Under the pieces are notes generated by a model. It made no database searches and had not been told where the DNA came from. It saw only the letters and a program-made list of their open reading frames with translations. The position numbers and the translations under genes are program-made. This document shows, in pieces, positions 2,013 through 20,881 of a stretch of DNA of 64,000 bases. Origin of the DNA: Ornithinimicrobium sediminis (GTDB taxonomy: Bacteria > Actinomycetota > Actinomycetes > Actinomycetales > Dermatophilaceae); contig NZ_JAJSDQ010000001.1 of NCBI RefSeq assembly GCF_021272345.1, positions 620,001-684,000 of the forward strand, written 5' to 3'. How positions within the stretch are numbered: the stretch's first letter is position 1; each line of letters begins with the position of its first letter.

Positions 2013-3386
2013 ATGCCCACGAAGTCGACCCGCACCACCCGCCCGACCTTCCGCTGCACCGAGTGCGGGTGGAGCACGGTCAAGTGGGTCGGCCGCTGCG
2101 GCGAGTGCCAGGCGTGGGGCACCGTGGCCGAGGTCGGGGCCACCCCGGTCCGCACCGCGGCGGCCACGCCTGCCCGCCCGGCCGTGCCGATCGGTGACGT
2201 CGACGCGGAGCCCGCCCGGGCCAGCACGACCGGGGTCGGCGAGTTCGACCGGGTGCTGGGCGGTGGGCTGGTGCCGGGCGCCGTCGTCCTGATGGCCGGT
2301 GAGCCCGGCATCGGCAAGTCCACCCTGGCCCTCGACGTGGCGGCCCGGGCGGCGCGGGAGGACCGCACCGTGCTCTACGTCTCCGGGGAGGAGTCCGCGG
2401 CGCAGGTGCGCCTGCGGGCGGAGCGGATCGGCGCCGTGGCCCCTACGCTCTACCTCGCCGCCGAGACCGACCTGGCCACCGTGCTCGGGCAGGTCGACCG
2501 GGTGGGCCCGACGCTGCTGGTCATCGACTCCGTGCAGACGATGGCCAGCGCCGACGTCGAGGGTGCCCCCGGCAACGTGGGCCAGGTGCGGGAGGTCGCC
2601 TCCGCCCTCATCCAGGTGGCCAAGTCGCGCAACATCGCCGCCCTGCTCATCGGTCACGTGACCAAGGACGGTGCCATCGCCGGCCCCCGCGTGCTGGAGC
2701 ACCTGGTGGACGTCGTCGTGCAGTTCGAGGGCGAGCGGCACTCCCGGCTGCGCCTGGTGCGTGCGGTCAAGAACCGCTTCGGTCCCACCGACGAGGTGGG
2801 CTGCTTCGACCTCGGGGACAGCGGCATCGTCGGGCTGCCCGACCCCAGCGGACTCTTCCTCACCAGCCGCGACCGGCCGGTCCCCGGCACCTGCGTCACG
2901 GTGACCCTCGAGGGTCGCCGGCCCCTGGTCGCCGAGGTGCAGGCCCTGGTCACCCCCTCGACCGGAGGGAGCCCCCGGCGGACCACCAGCGGCCTCGACT
3001 CCTCGCGCCTGGCCATGGTGCTCGCCGTGCTGACCCGCCGGGCCTCCCTCGACGTCCACAGTGCCGACTGCTACGCGTCCACGGTGGGCGGCGTGCGCCT
3101 CGGGGAGCCGGCGGCCGACCTCGCGGTGGCCCTGGCGGTCGCCGGCGCACGGCTCGACGTCGCCCTCCCCCAGGGCACCGTCGCCTTCGGCGAGGTGGGC
3201 CTGGCCGGCGACCTGCGCCCGGTCACCGGCGCACCCCGGCGGCTGGCCGAGGCGGCTCGGATCGGGTTCCGCCGCGCGGTCGTGCCGGCCGGTTCGCTGA
3301 GCGAGGGAGGCGCCCCGCCGGGCATGCAGGTGCTGGAGGCCACCTCGGTGGTCCAGGCCGTGTCGGCGGCGCTGGGCGCGCCCTGA
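2013..3386 (+). CDS. radA: DNA repair protein RadA
   Basis: A 457-residue RadA/Sms protein, a RecA-like ATPase that drives branch migration of recombination intermediates. It has an N-terminal C4 zinc finger (C15, C18, C29, C32), a Walker A at 96-104 (GEPGIGKST), the RadA-specific KNRFG motif (VKNRFGPTDE), and a C-terminal Lon-protease-like domain. Length and domain order match the family. It lies directly upstream of disA. The two are neighbours in many Gram-positive genomes, and RadA is a known partner and regulator of DisA in Bacillus and mycobacteria. Confidence 0.97.
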   Translation: MPTKSTRTTRPTFRCTECGWSTVKWVGRCGECQAWGTVAEVGATPVRTAAATPARPAVPIGDVDAEPARASTTGVGEFDRVLGGGLVPGAVVLMAGEPGIGKSTLALDVAARAAREDRTVLYVSGEESAAQVRLRAERIGAVAPTLYLAAETDLATVLGQVDRVGPTLLVIDSVQTMASADVEGAPGNVGQVREVASALIQVAKSRNIAALLIGHVTKDGAIAGPRVLEHLVDVVVQFEGERHSRLRLVRAVKNRFGPTDEVGCFDLGDSGIVGLPDPSGLFLTSRDRPVPGTCVTVTLEGRRPLVAEVQALVTPSTGGSPRRTTSGLDSSRLAMVLAVLTRRASLDVHSADCYASTVGGVRLGEPAADLAVALAVAGARLDVALPQGTVAFGEVGLAGDLRPVTGAPRRLAEAARIGFRRAVVPAGSLSEGGAPPGMQVLEATSVVQAVSAALGAP

Positions 3387-3419
3387 TCTGACCTTGAGGG
3401 TGGGACACCTGTGAGCAGG

Positions 3420-3425
3420 TACAAT
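3420..3425 (+). promoter_or_regulatory. Possible disA promoter, -10 TACAAT
   Basis: TACAAT at 3420-3425 is close to the consensus -10. A TTGAGG at 3394-3399 could be the -35, but the 20-bp spacing is long. This would give disA its own promoter with a leader of about 60 bases, containing a GGGTGAG ribosome binding site just before 3494. Confidence 0.4.
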
Positions 3426-3493
3426 CCGCGCAAGGACAGGGACGCTCGTGCGACGTGCCGTGGGACCGTGGACGACGACACATACGGGGTGAG

Positions 3494-4579
3494 ATGGCCG
3501 GCATGGAGCGCAGCGACGACGAGGTGCTGCGTGCTGTCCTTGCCGTCGTCGCCCCCGGGACCGAGCTGCGCGACGGGCTCGAGCGCATCCTGCGCGGGCG
3601 CACCGGGGCCCTGATCGTCCTGGGCAGCGACCGAGTCGTGGAAGGGATCTGCACGGGCGGGTTCGAGCTCGACATCGAGTTCTCCGCCACCCGGGTGCGC
3701 GAGCTGGCCAAGATGGACGGTGCCGTGGTGCTCGACCGGGACGTGACCCGCATCGTCCGGGCGGCCACCCAGCTCGTGCCCGACCCCGCCATCGAGACGC
3801 GCGAGAGCGGCACCCGGCACCGCACCGCCGAGCGCGTGGCCAAGCAGACCGGTCACCCGGTCGTGGCCGTCAGCCAGTCCATGTCCATCGTCGCCCTATA
3901 CATCGGAGACGTGCGCTACGTGCTGGAGGACTCCAGCCAGATCCTCGGCCGCGCCAACCAGGCCCTGCAGACCCTCGAGCGCTACCGCTCACGCCTCGAC
4001 GAGGTCGCCGGCTCCCTGTCGGCCCTGGAGATCGAGGACCTCGTCACCGTCCGGGACGTGGCGGCGGTGCTGCAGCGTCTGGAGATGGTCCGTCGGATCT
4101 CCGACGAGATCGCGCAGTACGCCGTCGAGCTCGGCACCGACGGACGCCTCATCACGCTGCAGCTGGGCGAGCTGACCGGCGGGCTGGGCAACGACCGTGA
4201 CCACGTCGTGCGGGACTACATCCACCAGGTCTCGACACCGCATACGGTCGAGGAGGTGCTCACCTGCCTGGAGGCACTGACCGCCACCGACCTGCTCGAC
4301 CTCGGACAGGTGGCTCGGTGCATGGGCTTCCTGACCGTCGGGGACGCGCTCGACTCGTCCATCTCCCCTCGGGGGCACCGGCTGCTGAGCCGGGTCCCCC
4401 GGCTGCCCGGTGCCATCACCGAACGGCTGATCGACGAGTTCGGCACGCTGCAGGCCCTGCTCTCGGCCGGTGTGGACGACCTGATGACCGTCGACGGCGT
4501 GGGCGAGGCCCGGGCCCGTGCGGTGCGCGAGGGCCTGTCCCGTCTGGCCGAGACGAGCATCCTCGAACGCTACGTGTGA
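3494..4579 (+). CDS. disA: Diadenylate cyclase / DNA integrity scanning protein DisA
   Basis: A 361-residue octameric enzyme that makes cyclic di-AMP from two ATP and pauses at branched DNA. The DAC domain carries both catalytic signatures at the canonical positions: DGA at 75-77 and RHR at 108-110. A helical spine follows, and then a C-terminal helix-hairpin-helix DNA-binding domain (TVDGVGEARARAVREGL). I chose the ATG at 3494 because of the GGGTGAG five bases upstream and because it puts DGA and RHR at the usual numbers; an ATG at 3455 would add 13 residues. It is coupled to mutY by a GTGA overlap. Confidence 0.96.
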   Translation: MAGMERSDDEVLRAVLAVVAPGTELRDGLERILRGRTGALIVLGSDRVVEGICTGGFELDIEFSATRVRELAKMDGAVVLDRDVTRIVRAATQLVPDPAIETRESGTRHRTAERVAKQTGHPVVAVSQSMSIVALYIGDVRYVLEDSSQILGRANQALQTLERYRSRLDEVAGSLSALEIEDLVTVRDVAAVLQRLEMVRRISDEIAQYAVELGTDGRLITLQLGELTGGLGNDRDHVVRDYIHQVSTPHTVEEVLTCLEALTATDLLDLGQVARCMGFLTVGDALDSSISPRGHRLLSRVPRLPGAITERLIDEFGTLQALLSAGVDDLMTVDGVGEARARAVREGLSRLAETSILERYV

Positions 4580-5487
4580 GCGCGCCCGACTCCGCTCCGG
4601 GGGTGACCCGTACCGCCGCCGACGCCCTGCACCGGCCGGTGCTCGACTGGTATGCGGTGCACGCCCGCGACCTGCCCTGGCGCCGCCCGGAGTGCTCACC
4701 CTGGGGGGTGCTCGTCTCCGAGGTCATGCTGCAGCAGACCCCGGTGTCACGGGTGGAGCCGGTGTGGTGTGCCTGGCTGGAACGCTGGCCGACTCCCGGG
4801 CGGCTGGCCGAGGAGCCCGCCGGTGAGGCGGTGCGCGCCTGGGGGCGGCTGGGCTACCCGCGCCGGGCGCTGAGGCTGCACGCCGCCGCACGCACCATCC
4901 GCGACGAGCACGGCGGGCAGGTGCCCGACGACCTGGAGAGCCTGCGACAGCTGCCCGGCGTCGGCGAGTACACCGCCGCGGCGGTCCGCACCTTCGCCTA
5001 CGGCGGCCGCGCCGTGGTGGTCGACACCAACATCCGGCGGGTGCTGGTCCGGGCGCTCACCGGCCGTGCGCTGCCGGCACCGGCCCTCACCCGGGCAGAG
5101 ACGGAGCTGGCCGGTGCTGCACTGCCCGGGGACGACGCCGCGGCAGCGACCTGGAACGTCGCTGTGATGGAGCTCGGTGCGCTGGTGTGCACCGCCCGCT
5201 CACCGGACTGCGCGGCCTGCCCGGTGGCCGGTCGCTGCGCCTGGCGCCGCGCCGGGCACCCCGCCTACGACGGTCCGCCGCGCCGAGGCCAGGCCTGGGC
5301 GGGGACCGACCGGCAGTGCCGGGGGGTGCTCGTGCAGGTGCTCCGTGAGGCCACGACGCCGGTGGCCGCGGAGCGGCTCGCCCTCGCGTGGACCGACGAC
5401 CTGCAGCGGGAGCGGTGCCTGGACGCGCTGGTGGCCGACGGGCTCGTCGAGCCGCTGGCCCGCCGGACCTACCGTCTGCCCGGCTAG
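4576..5487 (+). CDS. mutY: A/G-specific adenine glycosylase MutY
   Basis: A 303-residue base-excision enzyme that removes adenine opposite 8-oxoguanine. It has the catalytic Glu in SEVMLQQTPV (E49), the helix-hairpin-helix LPGVGEYTAAAV, the catalytic Asp in VVDTNIRRV, and a [4Fe-4S] ligand set C-x6-C-x2-C-x5-C (CTARSPDCAACPVAGRC). The NUDIX-like 8-oxoG recognition domain of the longer MutY proteins is reduced to a short winged C-terminal tail, which is common in actinobacteria. The start is a GTG that overlaps the disA stop as GTGA, so radA, disA and mutY form one genome-maintenance block. Its 3' end nearly touches the convergent FemAB gene. Confidence 0.95.
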   Translation: MSAPDSAPGVTRTAADALHRPVLDWYAVHARDLPWRRPECSPWGVLVSEVMLQQTPVSRVEPVWCAWLERWPTPGRLAEEPAGEAVRAWGRLGYPRRALRLHAAARTIRDEHGGQVPDDLESLRQLPGVGEYTAAAVRTFAYGGRAVVVDTNIRRVLVRALTGRALPAPALTRAETELAGAALPGDDAAAATWNVAVMELGALVCTARSPDCAACPVAGRCAWRRAGHPAYDGPPRRGQAWAGTDRQCRGVLVQVLREATTPVAAERLALAWTDDLQRERCLDALVADGLVEPLARRTYRLPG

Positions 5488-5491
5488 GTCC

Positions 5492-6586
5492 TCACAGGAT
5501 GTCGTCGGTGGTGCCGCGCGAGCGGTAGTTGACGTAGCTGCGCCGTGCCCGCAGCGCCTTGCGCAGCGCAGGGCTGAACGGGTGCAGGGACAGGTCGTAG
5601 GCCGGGAACCAGTAGCGCGCGGTGCCGAACTTCAGCTTCATCTTGAACACGCCGTAGGAGTGCTTGGACTCGTCCAGCCGACGCGGGATGCCCCAGAAGT
5701 CGAACGCCGTGTAGCCGTGCTCCTTGGCGTCCTGCATGGCCCCCCAGTAGAAGGCGTCCGGTGCCTTGGCGTCCTTGCGGGTCTCCCCCTCCGAGGGGGG
5801 CCGGTCGTCCCGGATGGAGCCACCGTAGAGGTAGCAGGTCATGTCGCCCAGCCCGAGGAAGAACCCTCCGGCCAGCGCCCGGCCCTCGTGCCGGGACAGG
5901 AACAGGTAGGCCTCGCTGCCGTCCCCGTTGCCCTCGCGCAGCAAGGTCTCGTAGTAGGCGCGCGGGAACGAGCCGAGCTTGGCCCGCTGGTTGGTGGCGT
6001 CGAAGATCTCCCAGAACGCCGCGAAGTCGTCGTCCCGGGCTGCCACGACCCCCATCCGCTGCGCGGTGCGCACGTTGCGGCGGGCCATCTTGTGCAGACC
6101 TGCGAAGATGGTGTCGCTGTCCTGGCCGAGGTCGGCCAGGATCGTGTGCTCCGGCTGTTCGGTCTCGGTGCGCCGGAAGGGCCCGAGCCGCTCGGGGATC
6201 ACGGACTGCTCGGCCGCCAGGTCGACCTGGTGCGGCTCGGTGCCGGCGACGAGCGGGACCGACGGCTCGATCTTGAGGTGCATGTCCGTCGTCCTGGCCA
6301 TCCTGCGCACCAGGCGAGCCACCTCGGGCAGGTCGTCCAGGCTCTCCAGCGCGGGGCCGCGCGGGGCGTAGAGGGTGCTGACACCGGGCACGAGGGGCTT
6401 GCGGACGACCTGCAGTGCGCCGACCGTGGAGCCGTTGCGCCGCAGCAGGAAGCGCAGGGGCTGCTGGCCCAGCACACGACGGGCCTCGCCGTAGCCCCAG
6501 CTCTGCAGCGGGCTGCTGATCGGAAGGTCCCTGACGGCGGCGTTGAACGTCGAGCGGTCATGGGCTTCGACCAGGGTGAGGGGCAC
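5492..6586 (-). CDS. FemAB-type aminoacyltransferase (lipid II:glycine glycyltransferase-like)
   Basis: A 364-residue protein of the FemX/FemAB family. These are double-GNAT enzymes that add amino acids from aminoacyl-tRNA to the stem peptide of lipid II to build peptidoglycan cross-bridges. Typical blocks are visible: KIEPSVPL in the first half, MARRNVRTAQRMGV, the Gly-rich AGGFFLGLGDMTCYLYGGS, and FYWGAMQDAKEHGYTAFDFW near the C-terminus. It acts at the cytoplasmic face of the membrane. The amino acid added cannot be predicted. The GTG at 6586 is preceded by TAGGGT (6593-6598) six bases upstream, so the start appears leaderless. Confidence 0.85.
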   Translation of the reverse strand: MPLTLVEAHDRSTFNAAVRDLPISSPLQSWGYGEARRVLGQQPLRFLLRRNGSTVGALQVVRKPLVPGVSTLYAPRGPALESLDDLPEVARLVRRMARTTDMHLKIEPSVPLVAGTEPHQVDLAAEQSVIPERLGPFRRTETEQPEHTILADLGQDSDTIFAGLHKMARRNVRTAQRMGVVAARDDDFAAFWEIFDATNQRAKLGSFPRAYYETLLREGNGDGSEAYLFLSRHEGRALAGGFFLGLGDMTCYLYGGSIRDDRPPSEGETRKDAKAPDAFYWGAMQDAKEHGYTAFDFWGIPRRLDESKHSYGVFKMKLKFGTARYWFPAYDLSLHPFSPALRKALRARRSYVNYRSRGTTDDIL

Positions 6587-6677
6587 ACCGGAACCCTACG
6601 AGAGGGGACGGCGCCGGTGCACATGAGCGCCCCCTTACTGCGTGTCCCGGCCCGGGGCGGGAGGGCGAGTGCGCGAA

Positions 6678-6706
6678 GGGCCGGGCGCGCTGTGCGCACC
6701 CGGCCC
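6678..6706 (-). terminator. Intrinsic-type hairpin downstream of clpC
   Basis: GGGCCGGG at 6678-6685 pairs perfectly with CCCGGCCC at 6699-6706. An inner GCGC/GCGC stem closes a three-base loop. There is no T-tract, as is usual in high-GC actinobacteria. It sits 22 bases past the clpC stop codon. Confidence 0.6.
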
Positions 6707-6727
6707 CGTCACGTCACACCGTCGGTC

Positions 6728-9238
6728 TCACTCCGACGTCGTCGCCTCCTCGATGGGAAGCAGGTCGGGCAGGGACTCCTTGGGGCTGCCCTGGAAGGTG
6801 AATGCCTCCTCCTTGCCCTCCCCAGCGGTGTCGACCAGCACGATCTCGCCGGCCTTCAGCTCGCCGAAGAGGATCTTCTCGGACAGCGCGTCCTCGATCT
6901 CCCGCTGGATCGCACGGCGCAGCGGTCGTGCGCCCAGCACCGGGTCGTAGCCCTTCTTGGCCAGGAGCGCCTTCGACGCGGGCGTGAGCTCGATGCCCAT
7001 GTCCTTGTCCTTGAGCCGCTCGTCGAGCCGGGCGACCATCAGGTCCACGATCTGGACGATCTCGCTCTGCGAGAGCTGCGGGAAGACGATGGTGTCGTCG
7101 ACGCGGTTGAGGAACTCGGGACGGAAGTGCTGCTTGAGCTCGTCGGTCACCTTGTTCTTCATGCGCTCGTAGCTGCCCTGGGTGTCGTTGCCGGCCGAGA
7201 AGCCGAGCGAGACGCTCTTGGAGATGTCCCGGGTGCCGAGGTTGGTGGTCATGATGATGACGGTGTTCTTGAAGTCCACGGCACGGCCCTGGGAGTCGGT
7301 CAGGCGACCGTCCTCCAGGATCTGCAGCAGGCTGTTGAAGATGTCCGGGTGGGCCTTCTCGATCTCGTCGAAGAGCACGACCGAGAACGGCTTGCGGCGC
7401 ACCTTCTCGGTGAGCTGTCCACCTTCCTCGTAGCCGACGTACCCCGGAGGCGAGCCGAACATCCGCGACACCGTGTGCTTCTCGGAGTACTCCGACATGT
7501 CCAGGGTGATCAGGGCGTCCTCGTCGCCGAAGAGGAACTCCGCGAGCGCCTTGGCCAGCTCGGTCTTGCCGACACCCGTGGGCCCGGCGAAGATGAACGA
7601 GCCACCCGGACGGCGCGGGTCCTTCAGCCCGGCGCGGGTGCGGCGGATCGCCTGGGACAGCGCCGTGATGGCGTCCTCCATGCCGACGATCCGCTTGTGC
7701 AGCTCGTCCTCCATGTGGAGCAGCCGGCTGGACTCCTCCTCGGTCAGCCTCATGACCGGGATGCCCGTCGAGGCCGCCAGCACCTCGGCGATGAGCTCCT
7801 CGTCGACCTCCGCGACGACGTCCATGTCGCCGGCCTTCCACTCCTTCTCCCGGGCGGCGCGAGCCTGCGTGAGCTTGTGCTCCTCGTCCCGCAGGCGCGC
7901 AGCCTTCTCGAAGTCCTGCGCGTCGATCGCCGACTCCTTCTCACGCTTGGCGTGCGAGATCTTGTCGTCGAAGTCGCGCAGGTCCGGCGGAGCCGTCATC
8001 CGGCGGATGCGCAGACGCGCGCCCGCCTCGTCGATGAGGTCGATCGCCTTGTCCGGCAGAAAGCGGTCGTTGATGTAGCGGTCGGCCATCGTGGCCGCGG
8101 CGACCAGGGCGGCGTCGGTGATCGACACCCGGTGGTGCGCCTCGTAGCGGTCGCGCAGACCCTTGAGGATCTCGATGGCGTGCGACAGCGTCGGCTCGCT
8201 GACCTGGATCGGCTGGAAACGGCGCTCCAGGGCGGCGTCCTTCTCGATGTGCTTGCGGTACTCGTCGAGCGTCGTGGCGCCGATGGTCTGCAGCTCGCCG
8301 CGGGCCAGCATCGGCTTGAGGATGCTCGCAGCGTCGATGGCCCCCTCGGCGGCACCGGCACCCACCAGGGTGTGGATCTCGTCGATGAACAGGATGATGT
8401 CGCCGCGGGTGCGGATCTCCTTGAGCACCTTCTTCAGGCGCTCCTCGAAGTCACCGCGGTAGCGGCTGCCCGCCACGAGCGCCCCGAGGTCGAGGGTGTA
8501 GAGCTGCTTGTCCTTCAGCGTCTCCGGCACCTCGCCGCGGACGATGTCGGTGGCCAGCCCCTCGACGACGGCCGTCTTGCCGACGCCGGGCTCACCGATG
8601 AGCACCGGGTTGTTCTTGGTGCGGCGGGAGAGCACCTGCATCACCCGCTCGATCTCGGCCTGCCGGCCGATGACCGGGTCGAGCTTGCCCTCCCGGGCGG
8701 CCTGGGTGAGGTTGCGCCCGAACTGGTCCAGCACCAGGGAGCCGGCCTGCTGGCCCTCCTGGCTGCTGGCGCCGACACCGGCGGCGGCGGCCTCCTTGCC
8801 CTGGTAGCCGGACAGCAGCTGGATGACGGTCTGGCGCACCCGGTTGAGGTCGGCGCCGAGCTTGACCAGCACCTGGGCCGCGACGCCCTCCCCCTCGCGG
8901 ATGAGGCCGAGCAGGATGTGCTCGGTGCCGATGTAGTTGTGGCCGAGCTGCAGGCCCTCACGCAGGGACAGCTCCAGCACCTTCTTGGCGCGGGGGGTGA
9001 ACGGGATGTGCCCGGTGGGCGACTGCTGCCCCTGGCCGATGATCTCCTGGACCTGCTCGCGCACGGCGTCCAGGGAGATGCCCAGGGACTCCAGGGCCTT
9101 GGCGGCCACGCCCTCCCCCTCGTGGATCAGCCCGAGCAGGATGTGCTCGGTGCCGATGTAGTTGTGGTTGAGCATCCGCGCCTCTTCCTGCGCGAGCACC
9201 ACAACCCGGCGGGCCCGGTCGGTGAACCGTTCGAACAT
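6728..9238 (-). CDS. clpC: ATP-dependent Clp protease ATP-binding subunit ClpC
   Basis: An 836-residue AAA+ unfoldase that feeds substrates to ClpP. It has two N-terminal Clp-N repeats (both containing the block [14 protein letters not shown]), NBD1 with Walker [14 protein letters not shown] near residue 215, a UVR motif ([20 protein letters not shown]) in the middle, and NBD2 with [14 protein letters not shown] and arginine-finger blocks. Full length for the family. A CAGGAGAGACC ribosome binding site precedes the ATG. No ctsR-mcsA-mcsB genes lie upstream, so it is a stand-alone actinobacterial clpC1. It is divergent from a lipoprotein gene, with about 178 bp between starts. Confidence 0.97.
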
Positions 9239-9404
9239 GGTCTCTCCTGAATCGTCGAGAAGACTCGATGGTACGTGCGTCTGCTGGGCTCAACGCGGTG
9301 TTTCGCAGGACTGTTCCACATCCGGGCCCCTGTGGCCGCGGTGTTCGCCCACGGCATAAGCGGCGGTGGGACCACGGCGACGGCTCCCCCAGCCGTACAC
9401 GTCA

Positions 9405-9410
9405 TACTCT
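9405..9410 (+). promoter_or_regulatory. -10 box TACTCT, leaderless lipoprotein start
   Basis: TACTCT ends six bases before the ATG at 9417, and no ribosome binding site is visible. This is the same arrangement as at several other genes in the window. Confidence 0.4.
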
Positions 9411-9416
9411 GCCCTC

Positions 9417-10061
9417 ATGCGCCACCTCCCCACCTCTGCAGCCGCGCTCGCCGGTGCGTCACTGCTGCTCGCCGCCTGTACGAGCGACGGGCCGGACACT
9501 GCGGAGCCCGACGTCGTGACGCTCACCTCGGCGCCCGGCCCGGCCGAGGCCGGCACGGCCTCCGACACGGGCTGGTACTGCGCACTGATCGAGGAGGAGC
9601 TGGTGGCGACCGCCACCAACGGTGCCCTGGACCGGGCCCGCGAGTCGATGGTCAGCAACGACGACGACGCGTGGGTGTGCGAGGTCAACCTGGTCACCGG
9701 CGACAGCTACGAGACCGTGCTGCGCCTGAGCGTGTACCCCAACGGGCAGGAGGAGACCGAGGCCTTCCGCGCCGAGCTCGCGGACGCCGACGGGATGGAG
9801 CGGGGCCCGGCGTTCCTCGGCGAGTCCTATGTCGTGCCCGGTCGCACGGTGGCGCTCATGCAGTGCAACCTGCCCGAGCTGGAGGGGCAGCCCGGCGGGC
9901 CGGGTCCCTACGCCTTCCAGGTCGAGGGGCTGTCCGGGCCCGCCGCCGAGCTGACCGAGGAGCTCCGCAGCCCGGTGCGCAGGCTCGTGACCCAGATCGA
10001 CCAGTCGGTCGGCTGCTTCCCGACGCAGGCCTACGAGTCGGCCCCCACCGACGGCGGCTGA
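9417..10061 (+). CDS. Secreted lipoprotein of unknown function
   Basis: A 214-residue protein with a lipoprotein signal peptide: MRHLPTS, a hydrophobic Ala/Leu stretch, and the lipobox LLAAC with the modified Cys at 22. The mature part is acidic and has three further cysteines (WYCAL, WVCEV, MQCNLPE) plus one near the end (VGCFP), which could form two disulfides outside the cell. The pattern recalls small actinobacterial DUF3558-like lipoproteins, but I cannot assign it firmly. It converges on ku and shares a hairpin with it across the two stop codons. Confidence 0.75.
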   Translation: MRHLPTSAAALAGASLLLAACTSDGPDTAEPDVVTLTSAPGPAEAGTASDTGWYCALIEEELVATATNGALDRARESMVSNDDDAWVCEVNLVTGDSYETVLRLSVYPNGQEETEAFRAELADADGMERGPAFLGESYVVPGRTVALMQCNLPELEGQPGGPGPYAFQVEGLSGPAAELTEELRSPVRRLVTQIDQSVGCFPTQAYESAPTDGG

Positions 10062-10081
10062 GCCACCACGAGGGTCAGCCG
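10055..10081. terminator. Bidirectional hairpin spanning the stop codons of the lipoprotein gene and ku
   Basis: CGGCTGA at 10055-10061 pairs with TCAGCCG at 10075-10081 across a 13-base loop. The two arms contain the stop codons of the two convergent genes (10061 on the plus strand, 10075 on the minus strand). It is short, so the terminator role is inferred. Confidence 0.4.
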
Positions 10082-11067
10082 GCCTTGGTCTCCTCGTCCG
10101 TCGTGTCCTTGGCCGAGGACCTCTTCGAGGTCTTCTTCGCCGCCGTCTTCCTGGCGGGCGTCTTCTTCGCGGTGTCCTTCTTCGCACGCGTCTTCTTGGC
10201 AGTGGCCTTCTTCGCGGTGGTCCTCTTGGCAGCCGGCGTCGTGCCCGACCCCTCCTCGGCGTCCGACGAGGAACCCTCACCCCGAGCGGCCTTCGCGCGG
10301 TCCACGCTGCGCTGCAGCGCAGCGAGCAGGTCGACGACCTCGCCGGTGTCGCCCTCGTCCTCGGTGTCCGGGCTCTCAGTGACCTCGCCGCCCTCGATCT
10401 TGGACCGGACCAGCGCCTCCACCGCCTGCTGGTAGTCGTCCTCGTGCCCCTCGGGCTCGAAGTCGCCGGCCATGGAGTCGACCAGCATGCGCGCCATCGC
10501 GACCTCGGACTCCTTGGGCTCGGAGACCTCGTCGAGGTGGTCCAGCTGGCCTGCATCCCGGATCTCGTCGGGCCACAGCAACGTCTGGAGCACGATGACC
10601 TCGTCCACGACCCGCAGCACGGCCATGGTCATCCGGGTGCGCACCGACACCGTGACGACCGCGACGCGCTCGCTCTCACGCAGCGCCTCCCGCAGCAGCC
10701 CGTAGGCCTTGGCGCCCATGGCGTCGGGCTCGATGTAGTAGGCCTTGTCGTAGAGGATCGGGTCGATCTGCGAGACCGGCACGAAGCGCTCGACCGCGAT
10801 CTCCTTGCTGCTGCGGTTGGGCAGGCTCGCGAAGTCCTCGTCCGTCAGCACGACCGTCTTGCCGTCGGTCGTCTCGTAGGCCTTGGCGATGTCACGGTAG
10901 GCCACCTCCTCCCCGTCGGCCTGCGCCACCCGCTTGTAGCGGATGCGGCTGCCGTCGGAGGCGCGCACCTGGTGGAAGCTGACGTCGTGGTTCTCCGTGG
11001 CCGAGTAGAGCCGGACCGGCACGTTGACCAGCCCGAAGGACACGGCTCCCTTCCAGATCGCTCGCAC
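10075..11067 (-). CDS. ku: Non-homologous end-joining protein Ku
   Basis: A 330-residue bacterial Ku, the homodimeric ring that binds DNA ends and recruits LigD. It opens with the family hallmark IWKGAVSFGLVNVPVRLYSA, followed by the β-barrel core and the minimal C-terminal segment. From about residue 265 there is a long Lys/Ala-rich tail (repeats of AKK, TAKKT, ARKTAAKK), the extended C-terminus that in other species adds DNA binding and threading. The start is the GTG at 11067. Only 17 bp separate it from the ATG of the divergent ligase gene, so the two end-joining genes must share a promoter region. Confidence 0.96.
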   Translation of the reverse strand: MRAIWKGAVSFGLVNVPVRLYSATENHDVSFHQVRASDGSRIRYKRVAQADGEEVAYRDIAKAYETTDGKTVVLTDEDFASLPNRSSKEIAVERFVPVSQIDPILYDKAYYIEPDAMGAKAYGLLREALRESERVAVVTVSVRTRMTMAVLRVVDEVIVLQTLLWPDEIRDAGQLDHLDEVSEPKESEVAMARMLVDSMAGDFEPEGHEDDYQQAVEALVRSKIEGGEVTESPDTEDEGDTGEVVDLLAALQRSVDRAKAARGEGSSSDAEEGSGTTPAAKRTTAKKATAKKTRAKKDTAKKTPARKTAAKKTSKRSSAKDTTDEETKAG

Positions 11068-18397: not shown

Positions 18398-19384
18398 ATG
18401 GTGGTCGACGCGGAGCCCGTGCCCTGGCAGGACGCCTGGCAGTCGGCGCTCTACGGCCCACAGGGGTTCTACCGCCGTGCCGAGGGCCCCGCCGGGCACT
18501 TCGCGACGTCGGCCCAGGGCCTGCCCCACGGCACCGCGCTGCTGGCGCGCGCGGTCGTCACCCTGGCCCGGCGACACGGGCTGACGCACGTCGTCGATGT
18601 GGGCGCAGGCCGAGGCGAGCTCGCCTCCGCGGTCGCCGAGCTGCTGCCTGCCCTCCGCGTCACCGCGGTCGACGTGGTCGACCGTCCGCCAGGGGTCGCG
18701 CCGTCGGTCGGCTGGGTCCGCTCCCCCGGCGGGGCCGCGCTCCCGGACTCGCTCACCGGTCTCGGCGACGCCCTGGTCCTCGCCCATGAGTGGCTGGACG
18801 TCGTCCCGTGCACGGTGGCCACGCGGGAGGACGGGGTATGGCGTGTGCTCACCGTCGAGCCGCGCACCGGCCACGAGAGCGTCGACGGCCCGCCGTCCGC
18901 CGACGAGTCCGCCTGGCTGGACCGGTGGGCCGGCCCGTCCGCCCTGCGTGCCGAGGTCGGCATCACCCGCGACCTCGCCTGGGCCGACCTGGTCTCCCGG
19001 GTCGACGACGGGCTGGTCCTCGCCGTCGACTACGGGCACACGCTGGCCGACCGACCGCCGGAGGGCACGCTCACCGCATACCGACACGGCGAGCAGGTGG
19101 TCCCGGTGCCCGACGGGTCCTGTGACCTCACCGCGCACGTCGCCGTCGACGCGCTGGCCGCGGCGACACCCGGTGCCGGGGTGCGCGTGCTGCGCCAGCG
19201 GGAGGTGCTGGAGGACCTGCTCGGCCCGCCCCAGGCCGCCCCGCACGACCTCGCCCGTTCGGACCCCACGGCATACCTGGAGGCGCTGGCGGAGCAGTCG
19301 ACCCGCAGAGAGCTGGCCGCCCGGGGCGGTCTGGGCGGCTTCTGGTGGGTGCTGGCAGAGCGTGGCACTACCGTGGGGGCGTGA
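18398..19384 (+). CDS. SAM-dependent methyltransferase, MidA/NDUFAF7 family (COG1565)
   Basis: A 328-residue class I methyltransferase with the family-specific blocks: [18 protein letters not shown] near the N-terminus, SAM motif [13 protein letters not shown] (residues about 64-76), [24 protein letters not shown], and the late GTLTAYRHG and [13 protein letters not shown]. The human homologue NDUFAF7 dimethylates Arg85 of the 49-kDa (NuoD-type) subunit of complex I. Here the gene overlaps a NuoD-like gene by four bases (GTGA), so the same substrate relationship is likely; that is inference from position plus family knowledge. A GGAGG lies eight to nine bases before the ATG. Confidence 0.88.
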
Positions 19385-20559
19385 GCGAGAGCGGTCCCAC
19401 GGGCACGAGGAGCCTCGACGTCAGCATGGGCGCGGCCGGGCTGAGCACCACCGAGATGGTGCTCAACATCGGCCCCCAGCACCCGGCGACGCACGGGGTG
19501 CTGCGGCTGCGCATCACGGCCGACGGCGAGCGGATCACCGCCGCGGAGCCGGTGGTGGGCTACATGCACCGCGGGGCCGAGAAGCTCTTCGAGGTGCGCG
19601 ACTACCGGCAGATCATGGTGCTGGCCAACCGGCACGACTGGCTGTCGGCGTTCAGCAACGAGATCGGGGTGGCGCTCACCGTCGAGGCGCTGCTGGGCAT
19701 GGAGGTGCCCGAGCGGGCGACCTGGGCCCGCACCCTCCTGGCCGAGCTCAACCGCGTGCTCAACCACCTCATGTTCCTGGGGTCCTACCCCCTGGAGCTC
19801 GGTGCGATCACACCGATGTTCTACGCCTTCCGGGAGCGGGAGGAGCTGCAGGCCGTCATGGAGGAGATCTCCGGTGGGCGGATGCACTACATGATCGCCC
19901 GAGTCGGGGGCCTGCGCGAGGACATCCCGAATGGCTGGCTCGACCGGGTGGACACGGCGATCGCCGCCGTGAGGCGCCGGCTGCCCGACCTGCAGGCGAT
20001 GCTCGTGGGCAACGAGATCCTGCAGGCCCGCACCTTCGGTGTCGGGGTGCTGGACGCCGACGTGGCCCGTGCCTTCGGGGTCAGCGGGCCGATCGCCCGG
20101 GCCAGCGGGCTCGACGTCGACCTGCGTCGCGACGAGCCCTACCTGGCGTATGCCGAGCTGTTCGCCGAGGGCGGGCCGGGCCGGGTCGTCACCCGCACCG
20201 CCGGCGACTGCCACGCCCGGCTCGAGGTGCTGCTGGAGCAGGTCGAGGTCAGCCTGGAGCTGGCCGAGCGCTGCACCGCTGTGCTCCGCGAGCTGCCCCC
20301 GGGCCCGATCAACGTCAAGCTGCCCAAGGTGCTGAAGGTCCCCGAGGGTGAGCACTACCAGGCGACCGAGAACCCGCTCGGCTTCAACGGCTACTACCTG
20401 GTGAGCCGGGGTGACAAGGTGCCGTGGCGGCTCAAGCTGCGGTCGGCCTCGTTCAACAACGTGCAGGCGCTGGCCCAGCTGCTCCCGGGCACCGTGGTCG
20501 CCGACATGGTCGCCATCCTCGGCTCGATGTTCTTCGTGGTCGGCGACGTCGACAAGTAG
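19381..20559 (+). CDS. nuoD: Orphan NADH-quinone oxidoreductase subunit D-like protein
   Basis: A 392-residue protein of the NuoD/49-kDa family. It has [13 protein letters not shown] near the N-terminus with the quinone-site His at 38, [11 protein letters not shown] with the Arg that NDUFAF7 methylates in mammals at residue 64, and a family-like C-terminus (SFNNVQ, then VVGDVDK). At residue 87, where Thermus Nqo4 has the essential quinone-site Tyr87 (Tyr108 in cattle), it has Trp (HDWLSAF). The usual SxDIVxGEVDR end has become [11 protein letters not shown]. No other nuo genes are nearby, so it is not part of a complex I operon. The start is a GTG overlapping the methyltransferase stop. Confidence 0.9.
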
Positions 20560-20576
20560 CCCGGCTCCCCCCACGC

Positions 20577-20686
20577 GTTGCCAGGGAGATTGCACCCCAC
20601 CACACCCCGTTGCCAGGGAGATTGCACCCCGCCACACCCCGTTGCCAGGGAGATTGCACCCCGCCACACCCCGTTGCCAGGGAGAT
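20577..20686 (+). repeat. Tandem 32-bp repeat array 1, behind nuoD-like gene
   Basis: Units begin with GTTGCCAGGGAGAT at 20577, 20609, 20641 and 20673, exactly 32 bp apart. The first three units are nearly identical (one A/G difference) and the fourth is cut after 14 bases. The array starts 18 bases after the nuoD-like stop codon and reads in the same direction. It would therefore form the 3' tail of that transcript. Confidence 0.9.
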
Positions 20687-20794
20687 CGCCCGATGTCGGC
20701 CGGCAAGGACACGTGACCCAGCTGGCCGGGCGATGCCCCGATGGGTCGGCTCGCCGAGGTCAGATGACCTTGTGAGCAGATCACCCCGGCCGAC

Positions 20795-20881
20795 ACACCG
20801 GAAAACCCCGAGCAACGCGCCGGCGGACACCGGAAAACCCCGAGCAACGCGCCGGCGGACACCGCAAAACCCTCGCAACGG
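20795..20881 (-). repeat. Tandem 32-bp repeat array 2, behind the DUF3180 gene
   Basis: On the plus strand, units containing ACACCGGAAAACCCCGAGC start at 20795 and 20827, and a diverged copy starts at 20859, again 32 bp apart. Read on the minus strand the units begin GTTGCTCGGGGTTTTCC (two copies) and GTTGCGAGGGTTTTGC (the copy next to the gene). They share a GTTGCnnGGG core with array 1. The array begins two bases after the DUF3180 stop codon in that gene's own direction. Between the arrays (20687-20794) I see no gene. Confidence 0.85.

Follow-up and report, generated by a model that had tools for sequence, protein, structure and literature searches.

Why should a gene for the D (49-kDa) subunit of respiratory complex I stand beside a methyltransferase gene, with no other nuo gene close to it? 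The question is raised by a gene pair of Ornithinimicrobium sediminis that lies in a 64,000-nucleotide stretch of contig NZ_JAJSDQ010000001.1 (assembly GCF_021272345.1, positions 620,001 to 684,000), referred to here as the window, in which a MidA/NDUFAF7-type methyltransferase gene overlaps a nuoD-like gene. The answer favoured here, with a probability of about 0.82, is that the second gene is nuoD2 and that it encodes the catalytic D subunit of a second actinobacterial complex I, made up of A2, B2, C2, D2, H2 and I2 to N2 and devoid of E, F and G, the subunit being probably methylated by MidA and the complex perhaps fed by ferredoxin. At the level of sequence, the identity of the protein, the missing D slot in a second nuo cluster, the co-occurrence of the two across genomes, a reciprocal Arg/Thr swap between NuoD and NuoB, and the intact iron-sulphur ligands of NuoB2 and NuoI2 are all established. 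The gene is not a functional orphan, as the other subunits are encoded elsewhere in the genome.

The gene pair and the second nuo cluster

The nuoD2 product falls within the NuoD family, scoring 236.1 bits against PF00346 (Pfam cut-off 24) and 366.8 bits against the NuoD equivalog NF004739 (NCBIfam cut-off 360); against TIGR01962, also a NuoD family, it reaches 378.2 and stays under the cut-off of 459.35. Its AlphaFold2 (AF2) model has a predicted local distance difference test score (pLDDT) of 79.9 and a predicted template modelling score (pTM) of 0.85. The best Foldseek matches of this model are 49-kDa chains of complex I, with an E value of about 1e-26, and all 50 matches listed are complex I or NDH entries. 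The companion protein carries the PF02636 domain (58.9 bits, Pfam cut-off 23.3), and its best solved relatives are 4f3n and 1zkd (COG1565/DUF185). A sequence-only reading of this DNA had described the pair with its GTGA overlap, together with His38, Arg64 in the HRGAE motif and Trp87 of the NuoD2 protein and the alignment of Arg64 with mammalian Arg85. Direct reading of the sequence confirms the coordinates and open reading frames, and the residues and the alignment are as described.

The same reading had found no other nuo genes nearby, which holds among the tested neighbours on either side of the pair in the window but not for the genome. A search of the assembly with PF00346 returned nuoD2 and one canonical NuoD, and a search with PF00146 returned three NuoH. 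The first of these NuoH is part of a complete canonical nuo operon, E, F and G included, and about 17 kb past the end of that operon a second cluster begins with the order A2 B2 C2 H2 I2 J2 K2 L2 M2 N2, both sets lying on a contig other than the window's. The second cluster is without D, E, F and G, and NuoC2 is followed directly by NuoH2 at the slot where D would stand. NuoC2 matches the NuoC family with an E value of 9e-23, below the cut-off, and NuoL2 likewise matches the NuoL family below its curated cut-off. With the displaced D2 added, the cluster holds all of A, B, C, D and H to N, the subunits of an 11-subunit complex I, and it lacks the E, F, G module of a canonical NADH:quinone complex I. 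A divergent KorA/KorB pair, a 2-oxoacid:ferredoxin oxidoreductase, lies 3.4 kb upstream; KorA is above the TIGR03710 cut-off and KorB just below that of TIGR02177.

The partnership of the displaced gene and the cluster was followed across 148 genomes of the class Actinomycetes, 127 of them near-complete (completeness of 90% or more, contamination of 5% or less). Presence was scored from the best E value per genome, up to 2.3e-75 for NuoD2, 3.2e-25 for NuoI2 and 1.1e-109 for NuoH2 (with one genome, G021, added through two NuoH2 fragments), thresholds that were chosen after viewing the gaps in the match lists. On this basis NuoD2 is present in 67 genomes (in two as fragments), NuoI2 in 70 and NuoH2 in 41. 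In the near-complete set, 54 genomes hold both NuoD2 and NuoI2 and 71 neither, so that the two agree in 125 of 127; NuoD2 alone is found in G070, whose NuoB2 is at the end of a contig, and NuoI2 alone in G004. Among the remaining 21 genomes there are four with NuoI2 only and one with NuoD2 only. The Fisher p-values for such joint occurrence take no account of relatedness. Families in which the genes are variably present have mostly lost them jointly, as in G081 of the window's own family and in five of the ten genomes of family f19. No NuoD was found in any of the 41 second-cluster loci of the class (L037 and L060 to L099, from 40 genomes), some of which are cut by contig ends. In two of these loci, L085 (G095:C1:5203000-5222000) and L097 (G087:C13:17000-36000), additional genes separate B2 from C2 or H2 from I2, so that in some lineages the operon has been broken up beyond the loss of D.

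Outside the class the D slot is mostly occupied. A search of 149 genomes across the phylum returned strong NuoD2 relatives, many of them 15 to 31 kb from a canonical NuoD on the same contig, and 20 loci were selected and fetched. In 15 of these a NuoD with Arg64 and Trp87 stands exactly between C2 and H2 of an A2 to N2 cluster (truncated by contig ends in L221, L223 and L231), and in 11 of the 15 another NuoN, which we take to close the canonical operon, lies 0.2 to 5.4 kb upstream. One locus, L224, has a displaced NuoD2 with MidA about 2.8 kb away, and the remaining four have a NuoD with Arg64 but Tyr87. These four (L235 to L238) are NuoD genes of other-class complex I clusters in which NuoB, in the three readable cases, has Thr at the swap site described below. 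When L037 and the 15 in-cluster loci were searched by tblastn, no NuoE, NuoF or NuoG was found. In a tree of 91 NuoD proteins, whose root serves for drawing only, a branch with support 100/100 splits off the 50 displaced NuoD2 beside L224, and a branch with support 100/99 parts all Trp-type proteins from the canonical and Tyr-type ones. The in-cluster orthologues and the tree together identify the orphan as a displaced D subunit and make the displacement an old one.

This evidence bears directly on the idea that NuoD2 and MidA form a free-standing system that has nothing to do with the second cluster and plays some novel role outside respiration. The separation of the genes in the class Actinomycetes would suit such a role, as would the alteration of Tyr87 and of the C-terminus and the drift of the residues around His34 and His38 in the most distant NuoD2 members. 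Against these stand the orthologues inside the cluster, the co-occurrence with NuoI2 and the retention of His38 and HRGxE, and we regard a free-standing role as extremely unlikely.

Features of the methyltransferase and nuoD2 gene pair; positions are those of the window
Feature	Position	Strand	Remarks
MidA/NDUFAF7-type (COG1565, PF02636) S-adenosylmethionine-dependent methyltransferase	18398..19384	+	ATG start, TGA stop; proposed methylase of the NuoD2 Arg
GTGA overlap of nuoD2 start and methyltransferase stop	19381..19384	+	Direct sequence reading
nuoD2, proposed D (49-kDa) subunit of the second complex I, which lacks the N-module	19381..20559	+	GTG start, TAG stop; residues numbered from the GTG at 19381
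His38 codon CAC, quinone-site loop	19492..19494	+	Kept in 49/50 displaced and 16/16 other Trp-type NuoD
Arg64 codon CGC, in HRGAE	19570..19572	+	Aligns with mammalian Arg85; proposed methylation target
Trp87 codon TGG	19639..19641	+	Position of the quinone-site Tyr of canonical NuoD

The neighbours of the pair in the window encode a Na/Ca exchanger, FolB/FolK, FolP, FolE, FtsH and TilS (minus strand), and a class II tRNA synthetase. After nuoD2, in what the open reading frames indicate is a convergent intergenic region, two short tandem-repeat arrays with a period of 32 bases occupy 20576-20686 (3.5 copies) and 20786-20872 (about 2.4 copies). A third nuo-like set is also present in the genome, on the minus strand of locus L039 (G000:C12:192001-208000) at 2386-10637. 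It includes NuoA (PF00507) and NuoH (PF00146) by Pfam, L, M and N by tblastn, and J and K by eye; NuoB, C and I were not seen. Between its A and H genes lies a 393-residue protein with a long His/Asp-rich stretch, which matches no Pfam or NCBIfam family above cut-off and for which a likeness to NuoB or NuoD noted by eye is unsupported. The set may represent a proton-pump arm in which a metal-binding adaptor replaces the redox arm, and a link between it and NuoD2 is conceivable.

Residues near the quinone site and cluster N2

The residues of NuoD2 were compared in 50 of the 67 displaced proteins, comprising the 30 best matches and 20 distant ones chosen in addition. These were picked by similarity alone, whereas the 16 other Trp-type proteins were grouped by Trp87 itself; the canonical NuoD came from 21 genomes, 20 of them other than the window's. 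Trp87 is found in all 50 displaced proteins, and Tyr87 in all 21 canonical ones, so that, in line with the sequence-only reading, Trp is not a trait of operon NuoD of the canonical kind. As a mark of the orphan state Trp87 was rejected, since the in-operon NuoD2 of other classes have it too; it marks the second complex instead. The C-terminal Lys of the window's protein is shared by 41 of the 50 displaced proteins, a C-terminal Arg being found in the other 16 of Trp type.

Of the quinone-site pair of His and Tyr expected in NuoD, the window's protein has His38 and carries Trp in place of Tyr. A function other than quinone reduction, which had also been suggested, finds no support, since 65 of 66 Trp-type proteins retain His38 and all but one of 38 loci show the four cysteines of NuoB2 that bind cluster N2 (the exception is L073, whose match begins past the first two). 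The conservation of His38 and of these cysteines points to a NuoD2 with a working quinone site in which Trp replaces Tyr. Both iron-sulphur motifs of NuoI2 are intact in 40 of 40.

A second difference between the two complexes links NuoD to NuoB. Arg64 is present in all 50 displaced NuoD2, in the 16 other Trp-type proteins and in the four Tyr-type ones, and all 21 canonical NuoD have Thr64. In NuoB the pattern is reversed, at a site that follows from where Arg83 is presumed to lie in Thermus Nqo6: Thr is found in NuoB2 of all 38 loci that could be read and Arg in NuoB1 of all 27 genomes, one locus of each kind having been cut. Thr was read at this site in 18 of 19 other-class loci, L235 being unreadable with the pattern used, and of the chains aligned with NuoB2 only mammalian ones are shown, with Thr at the same position. 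According to passages of PMC8042128, the Arg of HRGxE in Yarrowia NDUFS2 occupies the same space near N2 as does Arg83 of the NuoB homologue in Thermus. The canonical Thr64/Arg pair of NuoD1 and NuoB1 thus fits the Thermus arrangement described there, in contrast to NuoD2 and NuoB2, whose arrangement is the mitochondrial one, so that one cell codes for both. The reciprocal swap is what would be expected if D2 is fitted to B2, as a mixture of D2 with B1 would set two arginines at one place near N2.

The swap also bears on whether NuoD2 might be an alternative D subunit that replaces NuoD1 in the canonical NADH-driven complex I and so alters its quinone site. A canonical NuoH is available to it in all 22 near-complete holders in which NuoH2 was not found, and in many others. 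In such a hybrid, however, Arg64 would sit beside the Arg of NuoB1 near N2; NuoD2 also tracks NuoI2 genome by genome, and one genome, G128, has NuoD2 and the second cluster with neither canonical NuoD nor canonical NuoH found. Substitution for NuoD1 was rejected on the swap and on G128, and is very unlikely.

MidA, methylation and electron input

The sequence-only reading had placed an enzyme and its likely substrate side by side, and the class-wide survey shows that this pairing of COG1565 genes with nuoD-like genes is conserved: 53 of the 67 NuoD2 holders have a PF02636 gene within 12 kb on the same contig. PF02636 is matched above cut-off in 64 of the 148 genomes, 59 with NuoD2 and five without, and eight genomes have NuoD2 alone. 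The near-complete holders with MidA number 50 of 55 in the class-wide searches, which missed the MidA of G128, and 52 of 55 once this (found by a single-genome search) and that of G020 (at a contig edge, found by a custom profile) are included; 49 of these genomes carry MidA no more than 12 kb from NuoD2 on one contig. When the 72 near-complete non-holders were searched again one by one, MidA was found in a single genome, G069. MidA is upstream on the same strand in 44 of the 53 close pairs, convergent in eight and divergent in one.

Eighty loci from named organisms, including Nonomuraea, Ornithinimicrobium, Janibacter, Streptomyces and relatives of these, were found by patterns that included HRGAEKLF and LANRHDW and were excluded from the counts of Arg64 and Trp87. 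In 73 of them MidA is no more than 10 kb away, preceding NuoD2 in the same orientation in 72 and convergent with it in Streptomyces otsuchiensis (L178); the other seven offer only 0.1 to 5 kb of upstream DNA. In the other classes MidA was found above cut-off in 11 of the 20 genomes, all of which have Arg64, and in L228, L229, L230 and L234 it comes after the final NuoN of the second cluster. An E. coli control gave no PF02636 match above cut-off. Excerpts from PMC3829151 describe an NDUFAF7-type enzyme that acts on this very Arg of the D subunit, and excerpts from PMC3750175 report Arg65 of Paracoccus Nqo4 as dimethylated. By analogy, Arg64 of NuoD2 is likely to be methylated where MidA is present, and an Arg64 without MidA is possible.

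The pair could instead have been kept together by an old neighbourhood alone, with MidA methylating something else. Both genes do lie in an old and conserved fol-ftsH neighbourhood, and Arg64 persists in some genomes without a detected MidA. MidA nevertheless adjoins the last NuoN in the four other-class loci, a different neighbourhood, and is close to the displaced NuoD2 of L224; it is nearly absent from near-complete genomes without NuoD2, and orientation has changed in nine of the 53 close pairs with closeness retained. Given also that the known enzyme targets this residue (PMC3829151), neighbourhood alone is a quite unlikely explanation.

The methylated D subunit of a second complex I would then have arisen and would work as follows. 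In the class Actinomycetes nuoD2 would have left its operon and is usually found beside midA in the fol-ftsH neighbourhood, the other classes still having the order C2-D2-H2. During assembly, MidA would dimethylate Arg64 of NuoD2, as NDUFAF7 does its target in NDUFS2, and the modification would tune or stabilise cluster N2. With less certainty, ferredoxin reduced by KorAB may feed NuoI2 through its two [4Fe-4S] motifs, from which electrons may pass to N2 in NuoB2 and on to menaquinone bound by His38 and Trp87, the reduction of menaquinone driving proton pumping. Ferredoxin is the best guess for the donor, as a divergent KorAB lies 0.1 to 4.6 kb from the second cluster in 21 of the 41 loci and E, F and G are missing; the KorAB neighbourhood is circumstantial.

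Several observations weigh against this account. Across the 148 genomes NuoI2 occurs without NuoD2 in five (four of them 72-85% complete, and G004 93%) and NuoH2 without NuoD2 in two. Trp takes the place of an essential Tyr, and the Arg/Thr swap separates two old clades, each fixed for its own residue, which amounts to few independent events. MidA is on another contig in three of the 52 near-complete holders (G008, G079 and G084), and Arg64 is kept without detected MidA in G116, G127, G137 and nine of the 20 other-class genomes, so that methylation is not obligatory; the corresponding Arg of E. coli NuoCD is unmethylated, according to passages of PMC3750175. KorAB was not found near 20 of the 41 class clusters, some of them at contig ends, nor near the 20 other-class loci, and in one genome a NuoF-like gene stands by the second cluster.

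That last gene, in L086 (G022:C222:1-16000) at 8355-9527, matches NuoF1 at 38% and adjoins NuoA2. It stands where many other genomes have KorAB and perhaps provides a different electron input.

Reduced clusters and known systems

In 22 near-complete NuoD2 genomes NuoH2 was not found, which in G070 possibly reflects a contig gap. Twenty loci from genomes without NuoH2 (L060 to L079, a set that includes the 78% complete G015, and in which the NuoC2 of L076 was seen as an open reading frame only) have, within reach of their contigs, a second cluster of B2, C2 and I2 alone, with the exception of G030. This genome (L060, G030:C1:446000-462000) keeps A2 and a shortened NuoH2 at 7930-8301, between NuoC2 and NuoI2; J2 to N2 were not found there, and a gene for an HtpX-like peptidase lies directly 3' of NuoI2. 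Its cluster appears, from its gene content, to have been caught in the course of losing the membrane arm. G016 is also of the B2-C2-I2 type, with a contig break between C2 and I2 (L095 and L096). The membrane arm has been lost at three places on the drawn NuoD2 tree, namely in a clade of 20 rows (support 82/88), in G030 (L007) and in G016 (L027), and each time B, C, D and I, the Q-module, were kept together with the iron-sulphur ligands and Arg64/Trp87.

The reduced sets might be decaying, functionless relics, as the loss of the membrane genes, the shortened remnant of NuoH2 in G030 and the long branches of some distant NuoD2 would suggest. Decay of this kind is unlikely to have spared the same B, C, D and I genes after each of three losses, along with their ligands (40 of 40 in NuoI2, and the NuoB2 cysteines) and Arg64/Trp87. 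All 22 holders without NuoH2 have a canonical NuoH, like most genomes of the class, and the B2-C2-D2-I2 forms fit a Q-module able to work through the membrane arm of the canonical complex, possible alternatives being a soluble role and gradual decay. A tentative extension, possible rather than probable, is that the Q-module is exchangeable. A MidA-methylated, ferredoxin-fed B2-C2-D2-I2 would dock on the canonical arm in place of B-C-D-I and E-F-G, exclusively so in lineages without A2, H2 and J2 to N2, and Trp87 would adapt the quinone site to a low-potential donor. One proton pump would then serve two electron inputs.

A second complex I with its own D subunit shows where a conserved "orphan" NuoD is likely to belong and what it and its methyltransferase probably do. 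It also brings to light naturally occurring complexes in which Trp replaces a residue considered essential to the reduction of quinone, as well as lineages in which the membrane arm was lost but the Q-module retained.

Part of this is already in print. Passages of PMC3765725 and PMC8388888 describe in Streptomyces a second nuo set without E, F and G and with nuoD2 separate, and the arrangement reported here is of the same kind. In its passages on the nuo2 set (SCO4599-SCO4608), PMC9239103 calls the function unclear and suggests a hybrid machinery; it also states that nuo2 of S. coelicolor is without NuoC and NuoL, whereas the genome of the window has matches to both, below curated cut-offs. 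These passages make no mention of MidA, Trp87, the Arg/Thr swap, in-operon NuoD2 or module-only forms. A literature search, seeing its sources in part, likewise did not find the MidA pairing, the swap, the invariant Trp87, or the in-operon and module-only versions; on that search both the pairing of MidA with NuoD2 and the clusters reduced to the Q-module seem to be new.

The second complex also resembles the 11-subunit complex I of Desulfitobacterium, for which the relevant part of PMC11238625 proposes ferredoxin as donor and whose genes likewise lack the NADH module. It differs in coexisting, except in G128, with a canonical complex I in actinobacteria, in having Trp at the quinone-site Tyr, and in having a displaced D subunit. 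With NDUFAF7 and Arg85 of NDUFS2, as presented in parts of PMC3829151 and PMC3750175, it shares a COG1565 methyltransferase and the Arg of HRGxE on the D subunit; here, in contrast, enzyme and target adjoin, and the cell's canonical NuoD carries Thr instead of this Arg. Two environments of N2 would coexist in one cell, one with a probably methylated Arg on D and the other with Arg on B, which makes the role of NDUFAF7-type methylation testable apart from general respiration.

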